Source: Cloacibacillus sp. (GTDB taxonomy: Bacteria; Synergistota; Synergistia; Synergistales; Synergistaceae). From it: a stretch of DNA of 64,000 bases. The DNA lies in contig JAVVPF010000013.1 in NCBI GenBank assembly GCA_036655895.1, positions 1-64,000 on the forward strand, given 5' to 3'. Each line of letters starts with the position of its first letter. Position 1 is the stretch's first letter. Both the position numbers and the translations under genes were made by a program. The notes under the pieces were generated by a model. That model was not told the origin of the DNA, ran no database searches, and saw nothing but the letters and a program-made list of their open reading frames with translations. Shown here piece after piece: positions 22,879 to 33,228 of this stretch.

Positions 22879-23637
22879 TTATTTTTTGCCGCGCTTTCTA
22901 AACATAAGCCCCGTCATAAGAATGGCCCCCAAGAGCAAATTCAAATCAAACACTTCGCATCCACCACCGCTACCGCCGGATGAACTCTCTTTTGTAATAT
23001 GAGCGCCAGCCCACAAAGCACCAGTATCCAGCACATTATCCGCCTTACCGTCTGGAAGCACGATCTTCCCTCCGTTGCCGTAAGAAGGAGCGCCGGAATC
23101 GTTATAGAGATAGAAATCTATCATTACCGTCGCCCTATCCTTATCTCCGATCACAAATGCTTTACCAGTTTTGAGAGCATCAGCGAGTGAGACTACGCCT
23201 TTGGGGCCGATAAGCTCCACGCTCTTCGCTGCTCCGCGTGGAACGACATTAAGCGAGAAGCCGCTCTTCACTTTTTCCACAGAATTATCAAAGATTTTAT
23301 AGGCATCATTCTGCAGCTCCACCGTATAGCGAACCTTCACAAGGTTGCCAGCACTCAGGTCCTCCGCGGCCAAGTCACCATAGACCCTGACGCCTGGCAC
23401 GGACAATGCGGCTGCTCCACTGTCCAAAGCTTCAGGGCGCCCGCTTGAAAGATCCTCTTCAGTATAAAGGATCGGCGTATACTTCTGCGGTGGGTACGGC
23501 GAAGGCAACTTAAGGTTAGCTGGGCGCACCGTCCATTCCGAGATACCAAGAATATTTGCGACATCATAAGAGGCCGCTATATTGACTTTGCCAGCTCCAG
23601 GCGTCCCGCCTTTACCATATACCGCAAAACCATTATA
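22879..23637 (-). pseudogene. Remnant of a surface protein with a Synerg-CTERM-type tail
   Basis: 3' fragment of a longer secreted protein; the reading frame is open from 23637 with no ATG and no ribosome binding site. The GTG at 23529 would give 216 aa but cuts into apparently conserved sequence (FAVYGKGGTPGAGKVNIAA lies upstream in frame). The C-terminus is SSSGGSGGGC, a hydrophobic stretch, then RKRGKK: the Gly/Ser-Cys, helix, basic-cluster layout of Synerg-CTERM sorting signals. No catalytic domain is recognised. The next upstream pieces (23691-23979) are from a C69-type peptidase, perhaps the same original gene after internal deletion. Confidence 0.6.
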
Positions 23638-24169: not shown

Positions 24170-26545
24170 TTACCAGTGACGTCGCTTGCTACGTACCATT
24201 ACTGGGATCACGCCAAGCAGAATCAGTATTCCATATCCTGCCATCGCGCAGCCACTTGAGCCGCCATTATCTACTACGGCAGCTTTCTTAAAAAGCACAA
24301 CGCCCTTTTCTGCACTAATATTATCCTTTGGAAGTTCTACGAAATTTTCGTTGTTCAGAGAAAGCTCTTCGGCTTTTTCTTCCTTCCAATTCCATGCATA
24401 CCATTTACCGTCTATATCTGTCTTCGGCAGATATGCTCCAAATGATTTCTTCTGGTTGTTCACCGTAAAAGTGCTCATTGTAATCAGGCTACCAACAGTT
24501 TTGCCTGTATATTTTTGTACCTCTTCCTGTGTCAACATAGTTGGGAATTCCACAAAAGTCCCGCTGACCAGAGGCGTTACGTTAGGTACTTCGTATGTAT
24601 CAAGTTTTTCTGGCTTCATATAACGATATGCGGGATAATCTGCGTTAAGCGCCACCGGCAGGAATCCTTTTTTGCTCTCGCCTATTCTGTTGTACCAGTA
24701 GTTACCAAAATTGCGGCAACCCATCGGCTCAACTGTAAGCGCCGCATGCACACTGGCCCACTGATCCATATAGAAGACGAACGTTCCCTTCGGGAAGGTT
24801 ACAGTTTTTTTGGCAAGCTCCACTCCGGTAATGCCGGTTTCAAGTTGCGAGACGGTTATTTCAAATCCATCCCTGCCAATGAAATTGACATTTTTACCAA
24901 ATGCAGTGACCTTGTACGCCTCCACCTCTACAGTCGTATCTTTTGCTAGGCGTTGTATACGCACACCCGTGTTTGCTATTCTAGCAGCAACGGCTGCGTC
25001 TGCGGATACGATGTACGCATATGGCCGTTCAACATATGAATACGGAGTATTCTTATCATATGTCACATAACGGGAGCGGCTTACCCGTGCGGGGAAGTAA
25101 TCTGCTGAGACTATTGGCTGGTCAGGAGATGACGGATCTCTAACAAGGCGGAGGATAGGAACACCTTTTTCTCCAGGTATTTCTACATCTACGGATACAG
25201 GATCACCGTTCATCAGTTTTACTACAAGCTTGCTTCGGTCTGTAGCCATCGTTTTACGTGCGTCATCCACAGCTTTCTTAAGTTTTGGGCCAAGCTCATC
25301 GTCTGCAAAGGCTTTTATCATCGTTTCATAGACAATTTCGTTCGCCTGGATACGGCGTTCGTAATTGGTAGTCACACCTCCGCTAGGCGTGCGCGATTCT
25401 GAAAGAAGCCCGAACGCGCCTTTAAGACGTCCTGCCGTATCTGTTATGCCCTCTTCTGGATTGCCTTCCTGAATATCAGTATAGGCAACGGGATATTTGT
25501 CGCTTGAAGTAAACTTAGTACCATCCCAGTACTCTGCTTTCCCTTTTGCTGTCGTGCCGCTTCCAATATAAAACCACCACTCGAGTCCTTTCTTGCGAAG
25601 GGCCGTCTTGACAAGGTTTTCCAACGATTTATCCCCATCGTGCGCAAGAACGTTGAGTTCTTCTGGTGTGTTGGGATTGTTTGTAAAGAGCGTGGTTATA
25701 TCGAATTTGTAGAACGTGCCGGTAGTCACTTTATCTCCCATTTGATGCGCATCGGCAATAAAATGGGGCTCATAAGCATTGACCATTCTGTGCATGAGGC
25801 GTGTAATGGGAGACTCAAAACCGGTATTATCTCTGTTCTGATCAAGACCGCCGCTATCATTGGCCCAGTCAAACTCTGTTCCATTGGCTTTGTAACGGCG
25901 CGGCTTTACGGTATCAGTGCCACGCTGGTACTTCCACAAACCATCGAGATTATAGCGTGGCCATATTATCACTGTAACCTTATCAAGAAGTGGGGTGAGA
26001 TCTCCGTCTGCCAAGCGTTTGGCAAGAACAAGCATCGCTTCACTGCCAGCAATCTCTCCGCCGTGTATTGAAGCCTCGATCCACACAATCGGCTTACCCA
26101 GTGCCTTGACATCTTTGGGGTCAAATACGGCAGTGCTGCTAAAAACCAACAGAGGGGATTTAAAAGTCCTTAGCGGCTCCCCAAGACCCGGAGGTGAATT
26201 TTTATTATCATACGTAGCGAATTCGCTGACATAACGCATTTGCATGTGAGTTTTTGGAAGGGATTCAAGGTAGGCCTCCATATCTTCCTGAGAGGTTACA
26301 CGGCCTATCTCTCCCATTGCAGTTGAGCTATAGCCTTCATGCGTAAAAGTAGGGATGTCATATTTTACTCTATTTACGTTAAAATAATCTTCCACAACTT
26401 TTGGATATTTTTTGTAACCAGCGGCAGCATCACTGCTTCCGCCATTGTACCCACCCCACTCAATAACCGGATAATTTGAGGCAATCGCCGGATAAATAGC
26501 GAGAGCAGCTATAAGCGCAACTAAAATACCGATGTGTTTCTTCAA
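24170..26545 (-). CDS. M14-family zinc carboxypeptidase with Synerg-CTERM-type anchor
   Basis: Secreted/surface zinc carboxypeptidase, 791 aa. The signal peptide (residues 1-22) ends IYPAIASNYP. The zinc ligands are the HGGE motif in EASIHGGEIAGSEAM (~150-164) and a later His in IADAHQMGDKV. The substrate-binding NRDN and the general-base Glu region LLSESRTPSGG are also visible. A long beta-rich C-terminal part ends with DNGGSSGCAMAGYG, a hydrophobic helix and RSKRRHW, the Synerg-CTERM layout. TTG 26545 has GGAGGTG 8 bases upstream. Codon use is visibly AT-richer than in neighbouring operons, suggesting acquisition with the island. Likely trims peptides outside the cell to feed amino acid fermentation. 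Confidence 0.85.
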   Translation of the reverse strand: MKKHIGILVALIAALAIYPAIASNYPVIEWGGYNGGSSDAAAGYKKYPKVVEDYFNVNRVKYDIPTFTHEGYSSTAMGEIGRVTSQEDMEAYLESLPKTHMQMRYVSEFATYDNKNSPPGLGEPLRTFKSPLLVFSSTAVFDPKDVKALGKPIVWIEASIHGGEIAGSEAMLVLAKRLADGDLTPLLDKVTVIIWPRYNLDGLWKYQRGTDTVKPRRYKANGTEFDWANDSGGLDQNRDNTGFESPITRLMHRMVNAYEPHFIADAHQMGDKVTTGTFYKFDITTLFTNNPNTPEELNVLAHDGDKSLENLVKTALRKKGLEWWFYIGSGTTAKGKAEYWDGTKFTSSDKYPVAYTDIQEGNPEEGITDTAGRLKGAFGLLSESRTPSGGVTTNYERRIQANEIVYETMIKAFADDELGPKLKKAVDDARKTMATDRSKLVVKLMNGDPVSVDVEIPGEKGVPILRLVRDPSSPDQPIVSADYFPARVSRSRYVTYDKNTPYSYVERPYAYIVSADAAVAARIANTGVRIQRLAKDTTVEVEAYKVTAFGKNVNFIGRDGFEITVSQLETGITGVELAKKTVTFPKGTFVFYMDQWASVHAALTVEPMGCRNFGNYWYNRIGESKKGFLPVALNADYPAYRYMKPEKLDTYEVPNVTPLVSGTFVEFPTMLTQEEVQKYTGKTVGSLITMSTFTVNNQKKSFGAYLPKTDIDGKWYAWNWKEEKAEELSLNNENFVELPKDNISAEKGVVLFKKAAVVDNGGSSGCAMAGYGILILLGVIPVMVRSKRRHW

Positions 26546-27154: not shown

Positions 27155-27228
27155 AAACAAAAAAAGAGTCTCCCGCGCGGGGAAACTCTTTTGATATTTC
27201 AGTTGATTTTTTATTGTCAGCCGTTGAC
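27155..27228 (-). repeat. 74-bp direct repeat, right copy (native dnaJ end)
   Basis: Partner of 22709-22782. Here it is in its natural place: bases 27217-27228 encode the last residues of DnaJ and its stop, and the rest is the dnaJ terminator. The island between the copies therefore begins exactly at the 3' end of dnaJ. Confidence 0.9.
27157..27190 (-). terminator. Terminator of the hrcA-dnaJ cluster
   Basis: Hairpin AGAGTCTCCCG / CGGGGAAACTCT (27165-27175 with 27178-27189, minor bulge), followed on the minus strand by TTTTTTTG. Located 27 bases after the dnaJ stop. Confidence 0.8.
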
Positions 27229-28353
27229 CTGCTGGCCCGTTTCTTTGGCGAGTTCCCTGATGATGGAACGTTCCTTTTCTGTGAGCGTCTTGGGCACTTT
27301 GACCTTGACCAGTATGTTCATGTCGCCGTTCGCCTTGCCCTTTATGCGCGGCATTCCGCGGCCCTTTATGCGAAGCTTGGAACCCGCCTGAGTGCCCGCG
27401 GGAATGTCAAGTTTTTCGGTGCCGTCGAACGTCTCCACCTTTGCCTCACAGCCAAGCGCCGCCTGCGGGTAGGATATTTCAATGGTGGTGTTGAGGTCGT
27501 CTCCCTTGCGCGTGAATCTCGAATCCGGCAGCACTTCCGTAAGTATGAAGAGGTCGCCTGACGGGCCGCCGTTTATCCCGGCTTCGCCTTTGCTTGAGAC
27601 TCTGAGGCGCGTGCCGCTGTCAACGCCCGCTGGTATCTTCACCTCTACGGTCTGCACGCGCTTCACGCGGCCCTTGCCGCGGCATTCGGTGCATACTTTA
27701 TCGATTTTCTTGCCTTTGCCGCCGCAGGCGGAACAGGTGACGTTCTGCTGCATCTGGCCAAAGGGCGTATTTACAACTTCATGGAGCTGGCCCGTGCCGT
27801 GGCAGTGCGGACAAGTCTCAACTTTTGTGCCGGGCTCCGCGCCGCTTCCCGCGCAGTGCTTGCAGGTCTCAAGACGCGGTATCTCCAGCTTGCGTTTTGT
27901 GCCTTTATAGGCCTCTTCGAGCGTGATCTTGACTGTAGCTTCGAGGTCTGCGCCGGCGCGCGGTGCGTTGGGGTTCGCGGAACGCCTTCTGCCTCCGAAG
28001 CCGCCGGCTCCTCCCAGAAGGTCTCCGAACAGGTCGCCCAGGTCTTCCTGCGAGAAGGTCTGTCCCTGGCCGCCGAAGCCGCCAAAACCACCGAAGCCGC
28101 CTCCCTGGCCGCCGGGCGGCATGTCGCCGACAAAGCCGTACTGGTCGTATTGAGCGCGTTTCTGAGGATCGCTCAGCACTTCGTTCGCCTCGTTTATTTC
28201 TTTGTATTTAGCCTCCGCTTCCGCGTTGCCCGGGTTTGCATCGGGATGATACTTCCGCGTTAAAGCACGGTAGGCCTTCTTGATTTCGTCAGCCGATGCT
28301 CCCCGGCTAACACCCAATATTTCATAATAGTCTTTTGTACCGGGAGCAGCCAT
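27217..28353 (-). CDS. dnaJ: Molecular chaperone DnaJ (Hsp40)
   Basis: Type I DnaJ co-chaperone that stimulates the DnaK ATPase, 378 aa. J domain at residues 1-70 with the HPD tripeptide (YHPDANPG); a Gly/Phe-rich linker ([12 protein letters not shown]) follows. The zinc domain has four CxxCxGxG repeats ([32 protein letters not shown]), then C-terminal substrate domains. ATG 28353 has GAGGTG 9 bases upstream. Separated from dnaK by the two DnaK-lid-like genes. Its final codons lie within the 74-bp repeat. Confidence 0.96.
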
Positions 28354-28450: not shown

Positions 28451-28478
28451 GCCGCACAGGATTATACTCCTGTGCGGC
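28451..28478 (-). other. Hairpin upstream of dnaJ
   Basis: Perfect 11-bp stem GCCGCACAGGA / TCCTGTGCGGC with a 6-base loop in the 163-base gap between the 74-codon gene and dnaJ. There is no T run on the minus strand, so it looks like an mRNA processing or stability structure rather than a terminator. Confidence 0.6.
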
Positions 28479-28516
28479 TATTTGTCAAGATTAGTTAAAA
28501 TTTTGGTGAGGTTGGA

Positions 28517-28741
28517 CTACGCGAGCTTTTCCATCTCGTCGAGGACAAATTTAGCTTCGATTTTGATAGAAGTGGCGTCGTCGCCCTGTGCCTTCTCTTC
28601 GAGCTTGGCAAGGCGTTCCTTGAGTTTGATTGCGATTTCGGGCTTTGACGCGCCGGCTGCGGCAAGAGCCGCCTGTGCCTTTGCGATTACTTCTGCTGCT
28701 TCTTTGCGGGCTTCTTTAAGATCCATCTCTTTGTTCATCAT
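28517..28741 (-). CDS. DnaK-lid-like small protein (single copy)
   Basis: 74-aa protein that resembles the C-terminal helical lid of the neighbouring DnaK and little else. Residues 8-74 align along their length with DnaK residues ~500-570. In the last 22 positions 13 are identical to DnaK by eye, including SIK.E.K and V.DEM..LA. It also shares 16 of 22 with repeat 2 of the 158-aa neighbour (SIK.EAKFV.DE). It lacks the ATPase and beta-sandwich domains. All-helical, charged, soluble. ATG 28741 (a second ATG follows directly); SD only moderate (GGAAA ~10 bases up). It lies in the CIRCE-controlled hrcA-dnaJ cluster, so chaperone-linked (inference). Function unknown: possible lid mimic or DnaK/DnaJ/GrpE modulator. 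Confidence 0.75.
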   Translation of the reverse strand: MMNKEMDLKEARKEAAEVIAKAQAALAAAGASKPEIAIKLKERLAKLEEKAQGDDATSIKIEAKFVLDEMEKLA

Positions 28742-28807
28742 AATTCTTTTTCCGTCCTTTCAGGCGTCCGCTTTACAGCGGCCGCGTTCCGATGCTATAA
28801 TTCAGGT

Positions 28808-28866
28808 AGAGTTTTTTCCGCGTTGCTGTATCCGAAGCGTTCCAGCGTTTCGAATACAGTTTTTTT
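28808..28866 (+). ncRNA. Candidate small antisense-orientation transcript between the two lid-like genes
   Basis: On the plus strand TTTACA (28772-28777), an 18-base spacer and TATAAT (28796-28801) resemble a sigma-70 promoter. About 25 bases after the expected start comes a hairpin (CTGTAT / ATACAG outer arms at 28826-28831 and 28854-28859, with further pairing CCGAA/TTTCG and GCG/GCG-type positions), followed by T7 (28860-28866). The product would be about 59 nt. No plus-strand gene explains this terminator. Candidate only. Confidence 0.3.
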
Positions 28867-28870
28867 GTTT

Positions 28871-29347
28871 CTACTTCAGCTTCGCGATCTCGTCCATTAC
28901 AAACTTGGCTTCGACTTTGATCGAAGTGGCGTCTGTGCCGGCGAGTTTCTCTTTCAGATGGGCAAGGCGGGTGATGAGCTTAGCTCTGCACGCGGGGCAG
29001 CCTGCGCCTGATTTGAGGGCTTTTGCGCCTTCGGCGAGAACTTTTTCGCCTTCCTGGACCGCTGTGGGGAAATCTTCCGCCTTAACTTCTGAGCGGGCCG
29101 CGATGTGCTCCGCGAGAAGGTTGAGGGCGTCCACTACGTAGCGGGCCTCGTCTTTGATCGACGCTGCGTTTGTGCCTTCGAGTTTGCGGGAGAGTTTCGC
29201 GACTCTCTCCATTACCGTCGCCTGTTCCGGCTTGTCGGTGTTCCCGGCTGTGGCAAGGTATTTCTTAGCCTCGGCCAGCACTGCTTCGCCTTCCATACGC
29301 GCGTCCTGAAGATCCTGGACTTTCATCTCTGCTTCCATATTATTCAC
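28871..29347 (-). CDS. Tandem DnaK-lid-like protein
   Basis: 158-aa protein built of two ~70-residue copies of the DnaK C-terminal lid: repeat 1 at residues 11-79 and repeat 2 at 91-158. Each ends in the same block as DnaK (SIKDEARYVVDALNLLA and SIKVEAKFVMDEIAKL, versus [17 protein letters not shown] in DnaK). Repeat 2 carries a CPAC (117-120) absent from DnaK and from the 74-aa protein. No other domain, no signal peptide. GTG 29347 has AAGGG 4-5 bases upstream; ATG 29338 and ATG 29326 are alternatives. Lies 110 bases after dnaK in the heat-shock cluster. Function not known. Confidence 0.75.
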   Translation of the reverse strand: MNNMEAEMKVQDLQDARMEGEAVLAEAKKYLATAGNTDKPEQATVMERVAKLSRKLEGTNAASIKDEARYVVDALNLLAEHIAARSEVKAEDFPTAVQEGEKVLAEGAKALKSGAGCPACRAKLITRLAHLKEKLAGTDATSIKVEAKFVMDEIAKLK

Positions 29348-29401: not shown

Positions 29402-29435
29402 GCCTTTATCACGGGGTCGCCCCCGCGATAAAGGC
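29402..29435 (-). other. Hairpin between dnaK and the tandem lid gene
   Basis: Stem GCCTTTATC / GATAAAGGC (29402-29410, 29427-29435) extended by GGGG/CCCC around a TCGC loop. The minus-strand sequence beyond it (TGAAAGATAGG) has no T run. Suggests mRNA processing or 3'-end protection of dnaK mRNA within the cluster. Confidence 0.6.
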
Positions 29436-29456: not shown

Positions 29457-31563
<2,107 letters not shown>

Positions 31564-32145
31564 TCAGCCGTTGAACTTTCCTACGCGCACCTGAGGCGCT
31601 TTTAGAACACGGCCGGCCAGTTTGTAGCCGCGGCAGAGCGCGCCTATGATATGCCCGTCCTTTGAGGGGTCGCAGACAGGCTCCATCGTTACCGCCTCAT
31701 GCACCGCGGGGTCGAACTCGCCCTCTATGGGGATAAATTCAAGCCCGAGCTTTTCAAGGCCGTCCGAGAACTGCCTTATGACCATCGACATTCCTTTTGC
31801 AAGGCTGCTCTCCGGGTCGTTTACCGCGGCGGCCAGCCGTTCGAGATTTTCAAAGACCGGAAGCATCTCGTTGACCGCCTGCTCCGCGGCAAGTTTCGCG
31901 TTGCTTTCGCGGTCGCGCTCTATCCTTGATCGAAGATTGAAATAGTCAGCCCTTCCTCGGGCCACCTCCTCCTTCAGTTTTTTGATTTCCTCGTTCAGTT
32001 TCTCCGCCTCCGCCTTCACGGCGGGATCCTGCGGGGTCTCCTCCGCCTGAGGGGCGGCCTGAGCCTCCGAAGCCTGAGGCGGCTGGACGGCCGGCTCTTC
32101 CTGCATCTGAGGTTCGCTGCTGTGATGATCCTTATGGTTGCTCAT
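31564..32145 (-). CDS. grpE: Nucleotide exchange factor GrpE
   Basis: ADP/ATP exchange factor for DnaK, 193 aa. The N-terminal ~50 residues are Gln/Ala/Glu-rich and disordered, followed by a long coiled-coil helix (EKLNEEIKKLKEEVARGRAD). The C-terminal beta-wing contains LEFIPIEGEFDPAVHEAV and ends GYKLAGRVLKAPQVRVGKFN, both GrpE signatures. ATG 32145 has GAGGAG 8 bases upstream and overlaps hrcA by 14 bases, so it is coupled to the repressor. Confidence 0.95.
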   Translation of the reverse strand: MSNHKDHHSSEPQMQEEPAVQPPQASEAQAAPQAEETPQDPAVKAEAEKLNEEIKKLKEEVARGRADYFNLRSRIERDRESNAKLAAEQAVNEMLPVFENLERLAAAVNDPESSLAKGMSMVIRQFSDGLEKLGLEFIPIEGEFDPAVHEAVTMEPVCDPSKDGHIIGALCRGYKLAGRVLKAPQVRVGKFNG

Positions 32146-33166
32146 CTATTCGGTCTCCTCTTTCACCTGATTCGGAGTCCAGCTTGCGCAGTACTCCGTC
32201 TATTGCCGATATGACTTTTTCGTAATCCATGCGCTCCGGGCCGATGACTCCGACCACCGCCTTCTGTCCGCCGGCCTCGCCGGTGGCCGCGACGAGCGCG
32301 GAGCTTTTCATGCCGGGGATGCCGTTCTCGTCCCCTATCATTATGTTCATTTCATTGGCGGAACAGCGCCTCACAAGCTCGGCCATGCAGCTTTCCTCTT
32401 CAATGAAGGAGCAGAGCGCCTTCATCCGGCCGAGGTCCTGAAAGTCCCTCAGCCCCATGACCTGGCTGATGGAGCCTGTGTAAATTTTGGTGCGCGGCGC
32501 TTCCAGCATAGCGTCTATCTCGAGCACCGCCATGACGCATTGTGCATGGCACCGTCCTATTTCGTCGAGCAGCTCGCGGTTGAGCGTTTTTTTTATCTCG
32601 CTCCACGCGCGTCCGGAAAAGGTATTGAGCCTGGACGCCAGCGCGTCGAGTTCTTCCTGCGGGACGTCGGCCGGCATATCTATAAATTTCTGATGCACGA
32701 GGCCGCCCTGGAGCACCACCAGCAAAAGCACCTGCCGCTCGCTCATCCTCACAAAGTTGACGTGATGGAAGCGCACCGTGTCCAGCGGCGTGATGGCCGC
32801 TATGCCTATGTAGTCGGAGGCATGGCTTAGCATGTCAGAGGCTGATTCAAGCATTCTTTCCAGCCCCTGCCTGTGTTCCATCATCTTTTTTAGTAATTTT
32901 ACAGACGGGCCGGCAGTAGTTACACGTTGAAGTACTGAATCCACATATAGTCTATATCCCTGAGTTGTCGGGATCCTTCCCGAAGAGGCGTGCGTCTGTT
33001 TCAGAAAACCCAGGTCCTCAAGGTCGGACATTTCGTTTCTTATGGTTGCGGAGCTGCGCCCTGTCAGATACCTCCGGGAGACCGTTCGGGAGCCGACCGT
33101 TTCGCCGCTTTTGATATATTCGTAAACTACTGAAAGCACCACTTCAAGCTGTCGTTCCGTTATCAT
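32132..33166 (-). CDS. hrcA: Heat-inducible transcription repressor HrcA
   Basis: Represses heat-shock genes by binding CIRCE, with GroEL assistance in known systems; 344 aa, normal length. An N-terminal winged helix (TERQLEVVLSVVYEYIKSGE, then TVGSRTVSRRY and SSATIRNEMSDLEDLGFL) is followed by the GAF-like and dimerisation domains; IGDENGIPGMKSSALVAA and IGPERMDYEKVIS near the C-terminus are typical. First gene of hrcA-grpE-dnaK-lid-lid-dnaJ, preceded by CIRCE and a strong promoter. Confidence 0.96.
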   Translation of the reverse strand: MITERQLEVVLSVVYEYIKSGETVGSRTVSRRYLTGRSSATIRNEMSDLEDLGFLKQTHASSGRIPTTQGYRLYVDSVLQRVTTAGPSVKLLKKMMEHRQGLERMLESASDMLSHASDYIGIAAITPLDTVRFHHVNFVRMSERQVLLLVVLQGGLVHQKFIDMPADVPQEELDALASRLNTFSGRAWSEIKKTLNRELLDEIGRCHAQCVMAVLEIDAMLEAPRTKIYTGSISQVMGLRDFQDLGRMKALCSFIEEESCMAELVRRCSANEMNIMIGDENGIPGMKSSALVAATGEAGGQKAVVGVIGPERMDYEKVISAIDGVLRKLDSESGERGDRIDEQP

Positions 33167-33201: not shown

Positions 33202-33228
33202 TTAGCACTCCACTAACATGAGTGCCAA
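33202..33228 (-). promoter_or_regulatory. CIRCE operator of the hrcA operon
   Basis: TTAGCACTC-N9-GAGTGCCAA; one mismatch from the consensus TTAGCACTC-N9-GAGTGCTAA. It lies 36 bases upstream of the hrcA start and just downstream of the expected transcription start, the normal place for HrcA repression. Confidence 0.95.

Follow-up and report, generated by a model that had tools for sequence, protein, structure and literature searches.

The locus considered here, from a Cloacibacillus sp. genome (contig JAVVPF010000013.1, assembly GCA_036655895.1), raises the question of what two small genes are doing between dnaK and dnaJ, and of whether their products are, as a preliminary description proposed, free-standing copies of the helical lid of DnaK itself. 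Within the window, by which we mean the whole 64,000-nucleotide stretch that was analysed, ORF calls and family models give the following order on the minus strand: a CIRCE operator, i.e., an HrcA site (TTGGCACTC-N9-GAGTGCTAA, 33202..33228, with 0 expected by chance), hrcA (32132..33166; TIGR00331 above cut-off), grpE (31564..32145; GrpE models with a best E of 1e-31, although the match falls short of their individual equivalog cut-offs), dnaK (29457..31292), a 158-codon gene with a GTG start (28871..29347), a 74-codon gene with an ATG start (28517..28741) and dnaJ (27217..28353; TIGR02349 above cut-off). Both small reading frames were found at the positions first reported for them. No Hsp70 gene other than dnaK turned up in the genome, and dnaK itself is intact, lid and tail included, which rules out a split or frameshifted dnaK as the source of the small ORFs. 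Elsewhere in the window, two predicted minus-strand proteins (22879-23529 and 24170-26545) end in a Gly/Ser-rich stretch, a Cys, a hydrophobic segment and a basic tail, an arrangement that looks like a C-terminal sorting signal; an NCBIfam search at E 0.001 found no match for either of them.

In BLASTP comparisons, the 74-aa protein aligns without gaps to residues 499-569 of the window's DnaK, a region encoded at 29586..29798 on the minus strand, with 30 of 71 residues identical (42%), 45 of 71 positive and an E-value of 4e-14 for the single comparison. The 158-aa protein consists of two tandem copies of the same region, residues 3-80 being 38% identical to DnaK 493-570 in a gapless alignment and residues 96-157 being 43% identical to DnaK 506-568. 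The earlier claim that both proteins align with the lid over their whole length therefore stands for the 74-aa protein and has to be revised for the longer one, which is two lids rather than one; the match counts given for the last 22 residues of the 74-aa protein (13 of 22 with DnaK and 16 of 22 with the second repeat of the longer protein) were both right when recounted from the sequences. Chance likeness between helices rich in Ala, Lys and Glu was ruled out by shuffling: lid-pair scores lie 15-20 standard deviations above those of shuffled sequences, 0 of 5,000 query shuffles were as good for any pair, and shuffles that kept the pattern of hydrophobic and polar residues likewise never reached the real scores, so that the similarity is not a mere matter of helical composition. 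Homology to the DnaK helical lid is thereby confirmed for the 74-aa protein and for both halves of the longer one. This brings the free-standing lid units to three, which we refer to as A1 (residues 3-80 of the 158-aa protein; 29108..29341, minus strand), A2 (residues 86-158; 28874..29092, minus strand) and B (the 74-aa protein).

The significant similarity of the small proteins is to the Hsp70 lid domain (SBD-alpha), and it is confined to DnaK 493-570. At 74 and 158 residues they lack the N-terminal actin-like ATPase domain, and the beta-sandwich substrate domain (SBD-beta) is absent as well, the models being all-helical. The Pfam Hsp70 model PF00012 matches neither protein and the NCBIfam DnaK model gives the 158-aa protein a weak match (E 0.022), so automatic annotation would probably miss free-standing lids of this kind. 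A direct search of solved structures with P0002 found no match, and a fold search was therefore needed. AlphaFold2 models built from two-sequence alignments predict a three-helix bundle for the 74-aa protein (pLDDT 90.6) and six helices for the 158-aa protein (pLDDT 88.6). When compared with the PDB by Foldseek, their top matches are overwhelmingly substrate-domain structures of DnaK and HscA, aligned on the lid; for the 74-aa model the best matches are DnaK substrate-domain lids, those of E. coli DnaK among them (TMq 0.85-0.87, rmsd 1.2, probability 1.00), and for the 158-aa model the match covers one lid's worth. The predicted models thus have the fold of the lid bundle. Foldseek E-values are weak (0.06-0.1 at best, and 0.09 and above for the 74-aa model), as is expected for short helical bundles, and the structural match supports the sequence result without standing alone. 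Profile and structure searches point to the DnaK lid and not to an unrelated helical family, and the proposal that these are free-standing lid copies is borne out by sequence, predicted fold and, as described below, phylogeny.

Both small genes recur, in the same order, in one other genome, a Synergistaceae MAG of a different genus (G020, contig JAUNJZ010000004.1), which is the nearest named relative with this arrangement. The orthologs are 85% identical for the 158-aa protein and 75% identical for the 74-aa protein, and the dN/dS values between the window's genome (G000) and G020 are 0.076 and 0.097, respectively, which is like the range of 0.06-0.10 obtained for dnaK, dnaJ, grpE and hrcA in the same genome pair; these values are approximate, with synonymous sites near saturation (dS 0.9-2.1). 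Third codon positions hold 75 of the 107 nucleotide differences in the longer gene and 36 of the 60 in the shorter one. Neither gene has stops or frameshifts in either genome, and the start and ribosome-site regions are kept. The presence of the same gene pair in a second genus, with low dN/dS, means that the two reading frames are genuine genes under purifying selection, a constraint that is clear even though the ratios are approximate; pseudogene remnants are ruled out by the same values. A CPAC motif in the second repeat of the 158-aa protein (residues 117-120; 28988-28999, minus strand) was considered for a redox role and rejected, as the G020 ortholog has NPAV at this place, and the motif is probably not a conserved redox site.

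The conservation anticipated for the two reading frames was thus found in one relative, and the further expectation of a dnaK-small-small-dnaJ order conserved across the phylum failed. Protein queries and a lid profile, run against 188 Synergistota genomes, detected free-standing lids in two of them, G000 and G020. The remaining matches fell in DnaKs of full length, in second DnaKs (600-640 codons) or in shorter open frames: the genomes with a second lid match that were checked proved to have either another complete DnaK or a gene in fragments, and lid matches in shorter frames of fragmented assemblies were taken to be pieces of DnaK without a case-by-case check. A pattern scan of 84,980 species, which reaches close relatives only, so that distant analogues may exist, found the G020 contig alone. 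No match to the small genes was found among phages, plasmids and viral contigs, and an origin from a mobile element is accordingly disfavoured.

The origin of the small genes was examined with a tree of lid sequences (74 alignment columns, i.e., a short alignment with long branches for the free lids). The six free lids, three each from G000 and G020, form one clade (support 95/93), which is nested within the DnaK lids of Synergistaceae, where it groups with the DnaKs of G000 and G020 themselves (98/95). Under a mixture model with E. coli left out, the clade has support of 91/88 and its grouping with its own DnaKs 99/95, and the AU test rejects (p 0.0067) a topology in which the DnaKs form a group that excludes the free lids. 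These trees show the three free-standing lids to descend from the 3' end of the lineage's own dnaK. Less confidence attaches to the finer branching, in which A1 diverges first and A2 groups with B (94/82). Most simply, the 3' end of dnaK was duplicated in a common ancestor of the two genera, and two further duplications followed. In helix D (E. coli 583-591), SIK and KYV are common to the DnaKs of G000 and G020 and to the free lids, the nearest other DnaKs having AIK and KQL; we read these shared motifs as probable ancestry, with gene conversion or co-evolution as possible alternatives. The relatives G015 and G049 have no small genes and an empty arrangement of dnaK, hairpin, promoter and dnaJ, with the same downstream promoter block, and in more distant members 12-45 bases separate dnaK from dnaJ. 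The small genes are thereby shown to have been inserted between dnaK and a dnaJ promoter that is older than they are and marks the downstream edge of the insertion. Searches of open-licence papers turned up no precedent for stand-alone lids or for partial duplication of dnaK.

The dnaJ promoter (TTGACA-N16-TATAAT, 28451..28488, minus strand) matches the consensus hexamers at 12 of 12 positions, and its -10 element lies inside an 11-bp palindrome (GCCGCACAGGA/TCCTGTGCGGC). Relatives without the small genes have this block too. It is nearly identical in four genomes (the window's, G020, G015 and G049), more degenerate elsewhere, and occurs once in the window's genome; it looks like an operator for a dedicated regulator of dnaJ. 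Since dnaJ has a consensus promoter of its own, the small genes would be transcribed with hrcA, grpE and dnaK, and we count the CIRCE element upstream of hrcA as support for a presumed heat-inducible co-expression of the lid genes. Directly after dnaK lies a very stable 15-bp RNA hairpin (29402..29435, minus strand; fold z -4.8) without a U-tract. G020 has a 15-bp hairpin at the same place, equally of high stability but of different sequence and again without a U-tract (L034, 3861-3970, minus strand; fold z -5.8), and relatives show other hairpins there. To judge from these features, the hairpin is a better candidate for a role in RNA processing or stabilisation than for intrinsic termination, in which case read-through into the small genes would be allowed.

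What the lids have kept and lost bears on what they may do. In E. coli numbering, the free lids span about 525-599, from helix B to helix D, and helix A and the disordered tail are absent from all three. In bacterial Hsp70s, as reviewed in PMC8215388, the lid is latched to the substrate domain through D431-H544 and R467-D540, together with an N537-M404 bond; the corresponding residues of the DnaK encoded in the window are D431, R467, N537, E540 and Y544. Among 24 Synergistaceae DnaKs, the set over which invariance in helix B was judged, D526, N537, S541 and Y544 never vary, and all four are lost in six of six free lids; position 540 is acidic in A1 and A2 only. Helix A in combination with the helix-B residues that face SBD-beta (N537, D540 and H/Y544), as a working lid would have them, is not found in the free lids. 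On a helical wheel of helix B, the direction of the kept residues is 240 degrees, as against 34 degrees for the latch, and once DnaK's own conservation is allowed for, what is retained faces away from the latch (permutation p 0.0017, a value to be taken as indicative, the six sequences not being independent). The side of helix B that faces the bundle is kept, and the polar helix-D residues S583, K585, E587 and D593 are identical in all free-lid copies. The plain reading is that the free lids keep the bundle and no longer serve as a cover.

We tentatively suggest, at somewhat less than an even chance, that the small proteins are lid-mimic accessory factors of the DnaK machine that bind a partner of the lid, i.e., GrpE or the lid of another DnaK. 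The partial duplication of the dnaK 3' end in an ancestor of the two Synergistaceae genera gave rise to a stand-alone lid gene, which duplicated further into genes for a two-lid (158 aa) and a one-lid (74 aa) protein; on the lid-mimic model, both proteins would be made as the distal part of a heat-inducible hrcA-grpE-dnaK transcript. The free lids would act in trans, binding through the retained bundle rather than on SBD-beta, and their partner would be something that normally touches the lid, GrpE or a second DnaK's lid being the likeliest candidates; such binding may tune how the lid opens, how clients are released or how DnaK associates with itself under stress. The beta-wing of GrpE contacts the lid of mitochondrial Hsp70 through R574, in a contact that is small in human mitochondria (159 square angstroms) (PMC11685456), and lid-lid dimers of DnaK have been described (PMC8215388). 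In the structure of M. tuberculosis DnaK with GrpE, most of the lid is disordered. The residue equivalent to E. coli K528 is Lys in six of six free lids and lies on the bundle-facing side of helix B. We take K528 to be the counterpart of R574, from the aligned range of a mortalin chain and the limits of that construct, mortalin residues having been placed with a made-up lid consensus query that was used for that alone. The window's GrpE carries an FDP motif, which, going by the human sequence, presumably contains the partner Asp. The conserved Lys is compatible with GrpE binding, but it may serve folding alone. Counting against the lid-mimic model are the small size of the GrpE-lid contact, the disorder of most of the lid in the mycobacterial structure, the occurrence of the genes in only two genomes and the hairpin after dnaK, which could cut transcription; the operon position may merely reflect where the duplication happened.

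The preliminary description had envisaged that the small proteins dock on the DnaK substrate domain and compete with the native lid. Binding to GrpE or to DnaJ, which it also proposed, may occur, and GrpE as a partner is compatible with the sequence. As true lid homologs with the lid fold, and with an acidic residue still present at latch position D540 in units A1 and A2, the small proteins might be imagined to close over the substrate domain in trans as surrogate lids; with helix A and the substrate-domain face of helix B gone, the residues that are invariant in related DnaKs lost, retention pointing away from the latch, and DnaK still possessing a tethered lid of its own, such docking is unlikely, and we regard it as improbable that this is their role. 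The loss of that same surface would suit a lid reused as an independent helical bundle, a small holdase or scaffold acting outside the DnaK cycle, with the operon place as a trace of origin, and the identical helix-D polar residues in all copies could mark a new partner. Against this, the gene pair has kept its place between dnaK and dnaJ in two genera over a divergence at which synonymous sites are near saturation, which suggests that co-expression has a value; we consider a role outside the cycle less likely than lid mimicry, but the most probable of the alternatives.

A small protein encoded beside dnaJ in a dnaK operon also brings to mind DafA, which joins the DnaK and DnaJ of Thermus thermophilus in a 3:3:3 complex and inhibits both (PMC3125180, PMC3727329). 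By analogy with this CbpM-like protein, the lids might be adaptors for DnaK-DnaJ assembly that evolved anew; the DnaK lid is, however, the only family that they match by sequence, which speaks for a different origin, and we think the adaptor role unlikely. That they are non-functional leftovers of a dnaK duplication would fit their limitation to two genomes and their simple local origin, but it is hardly credible in view of the low dN/dS at near-saturated synonymous sites, the intact frames and the retained start and ribosome-site regions.

Among known systems, the lid of DnaK/Hsp70 (SBD-alpha; PF00012, PRK00290) has the same fold and clear homology, and the small proteins descend directly from their lineage's own version of it; they differ from DnaK/Hsp70 in having no ATPase domain, substrate domain, helix A or disordered tail, and in the loss of the helix-B residues that face the substrate domain. 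Hsp70 lids have been studied as tethered parts of Hsp70s. The lid of HscA (1u00) is one of the solved structures closest in fold to the 74-aa model (TMq 0.84), and HscA also has a weakened lid latch (PMC8215388), but its lid is part of a full-length Hsp70 and tethered to a substrate domain. DafA is the nearest functional parallel, being likewise small and encoded in the dnaK operon adjoining dnaJ, and the present proteins, too, may regulate DnaK; it is not a DnaK-lid homolog as far as is known, and the small proteins, which share with DafA/CbpM-like modulators their coding with dnaK and dnaJ, have no sequence match to them in Pfam, NCBIfam or PHROGs. No described stand-alone lid family was found above cut-off in these three databases or in the open-licence literature searched, in agreement with the preliminary description. 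A known domain has here been set free; only with demonstrated binding would the lids count as a new class of regulator. It is possible, and we offer it with still more reserve than the lid-mimic model itself, that such a class has been cut from the very chaperone that it regulates, consisting of trans-acting lid mimics that lack the client-closing face and set the DnaK cycle by capturing GrpE or the lid of another DnaK.

Stand-alone lids that are under selection beside an intact dnaK separate the role of the lid bundle on its own from its role as a cover. How GrpE couples nucleotide exchange to client release is partly open in the mitochondrial and mycobacterial structures, and should the free lids indeed bind GrpE or the lid of DnaK, they would offer a natural means of probing that coupling and be a clear case of a regulator born by the duplication of part of its own target.
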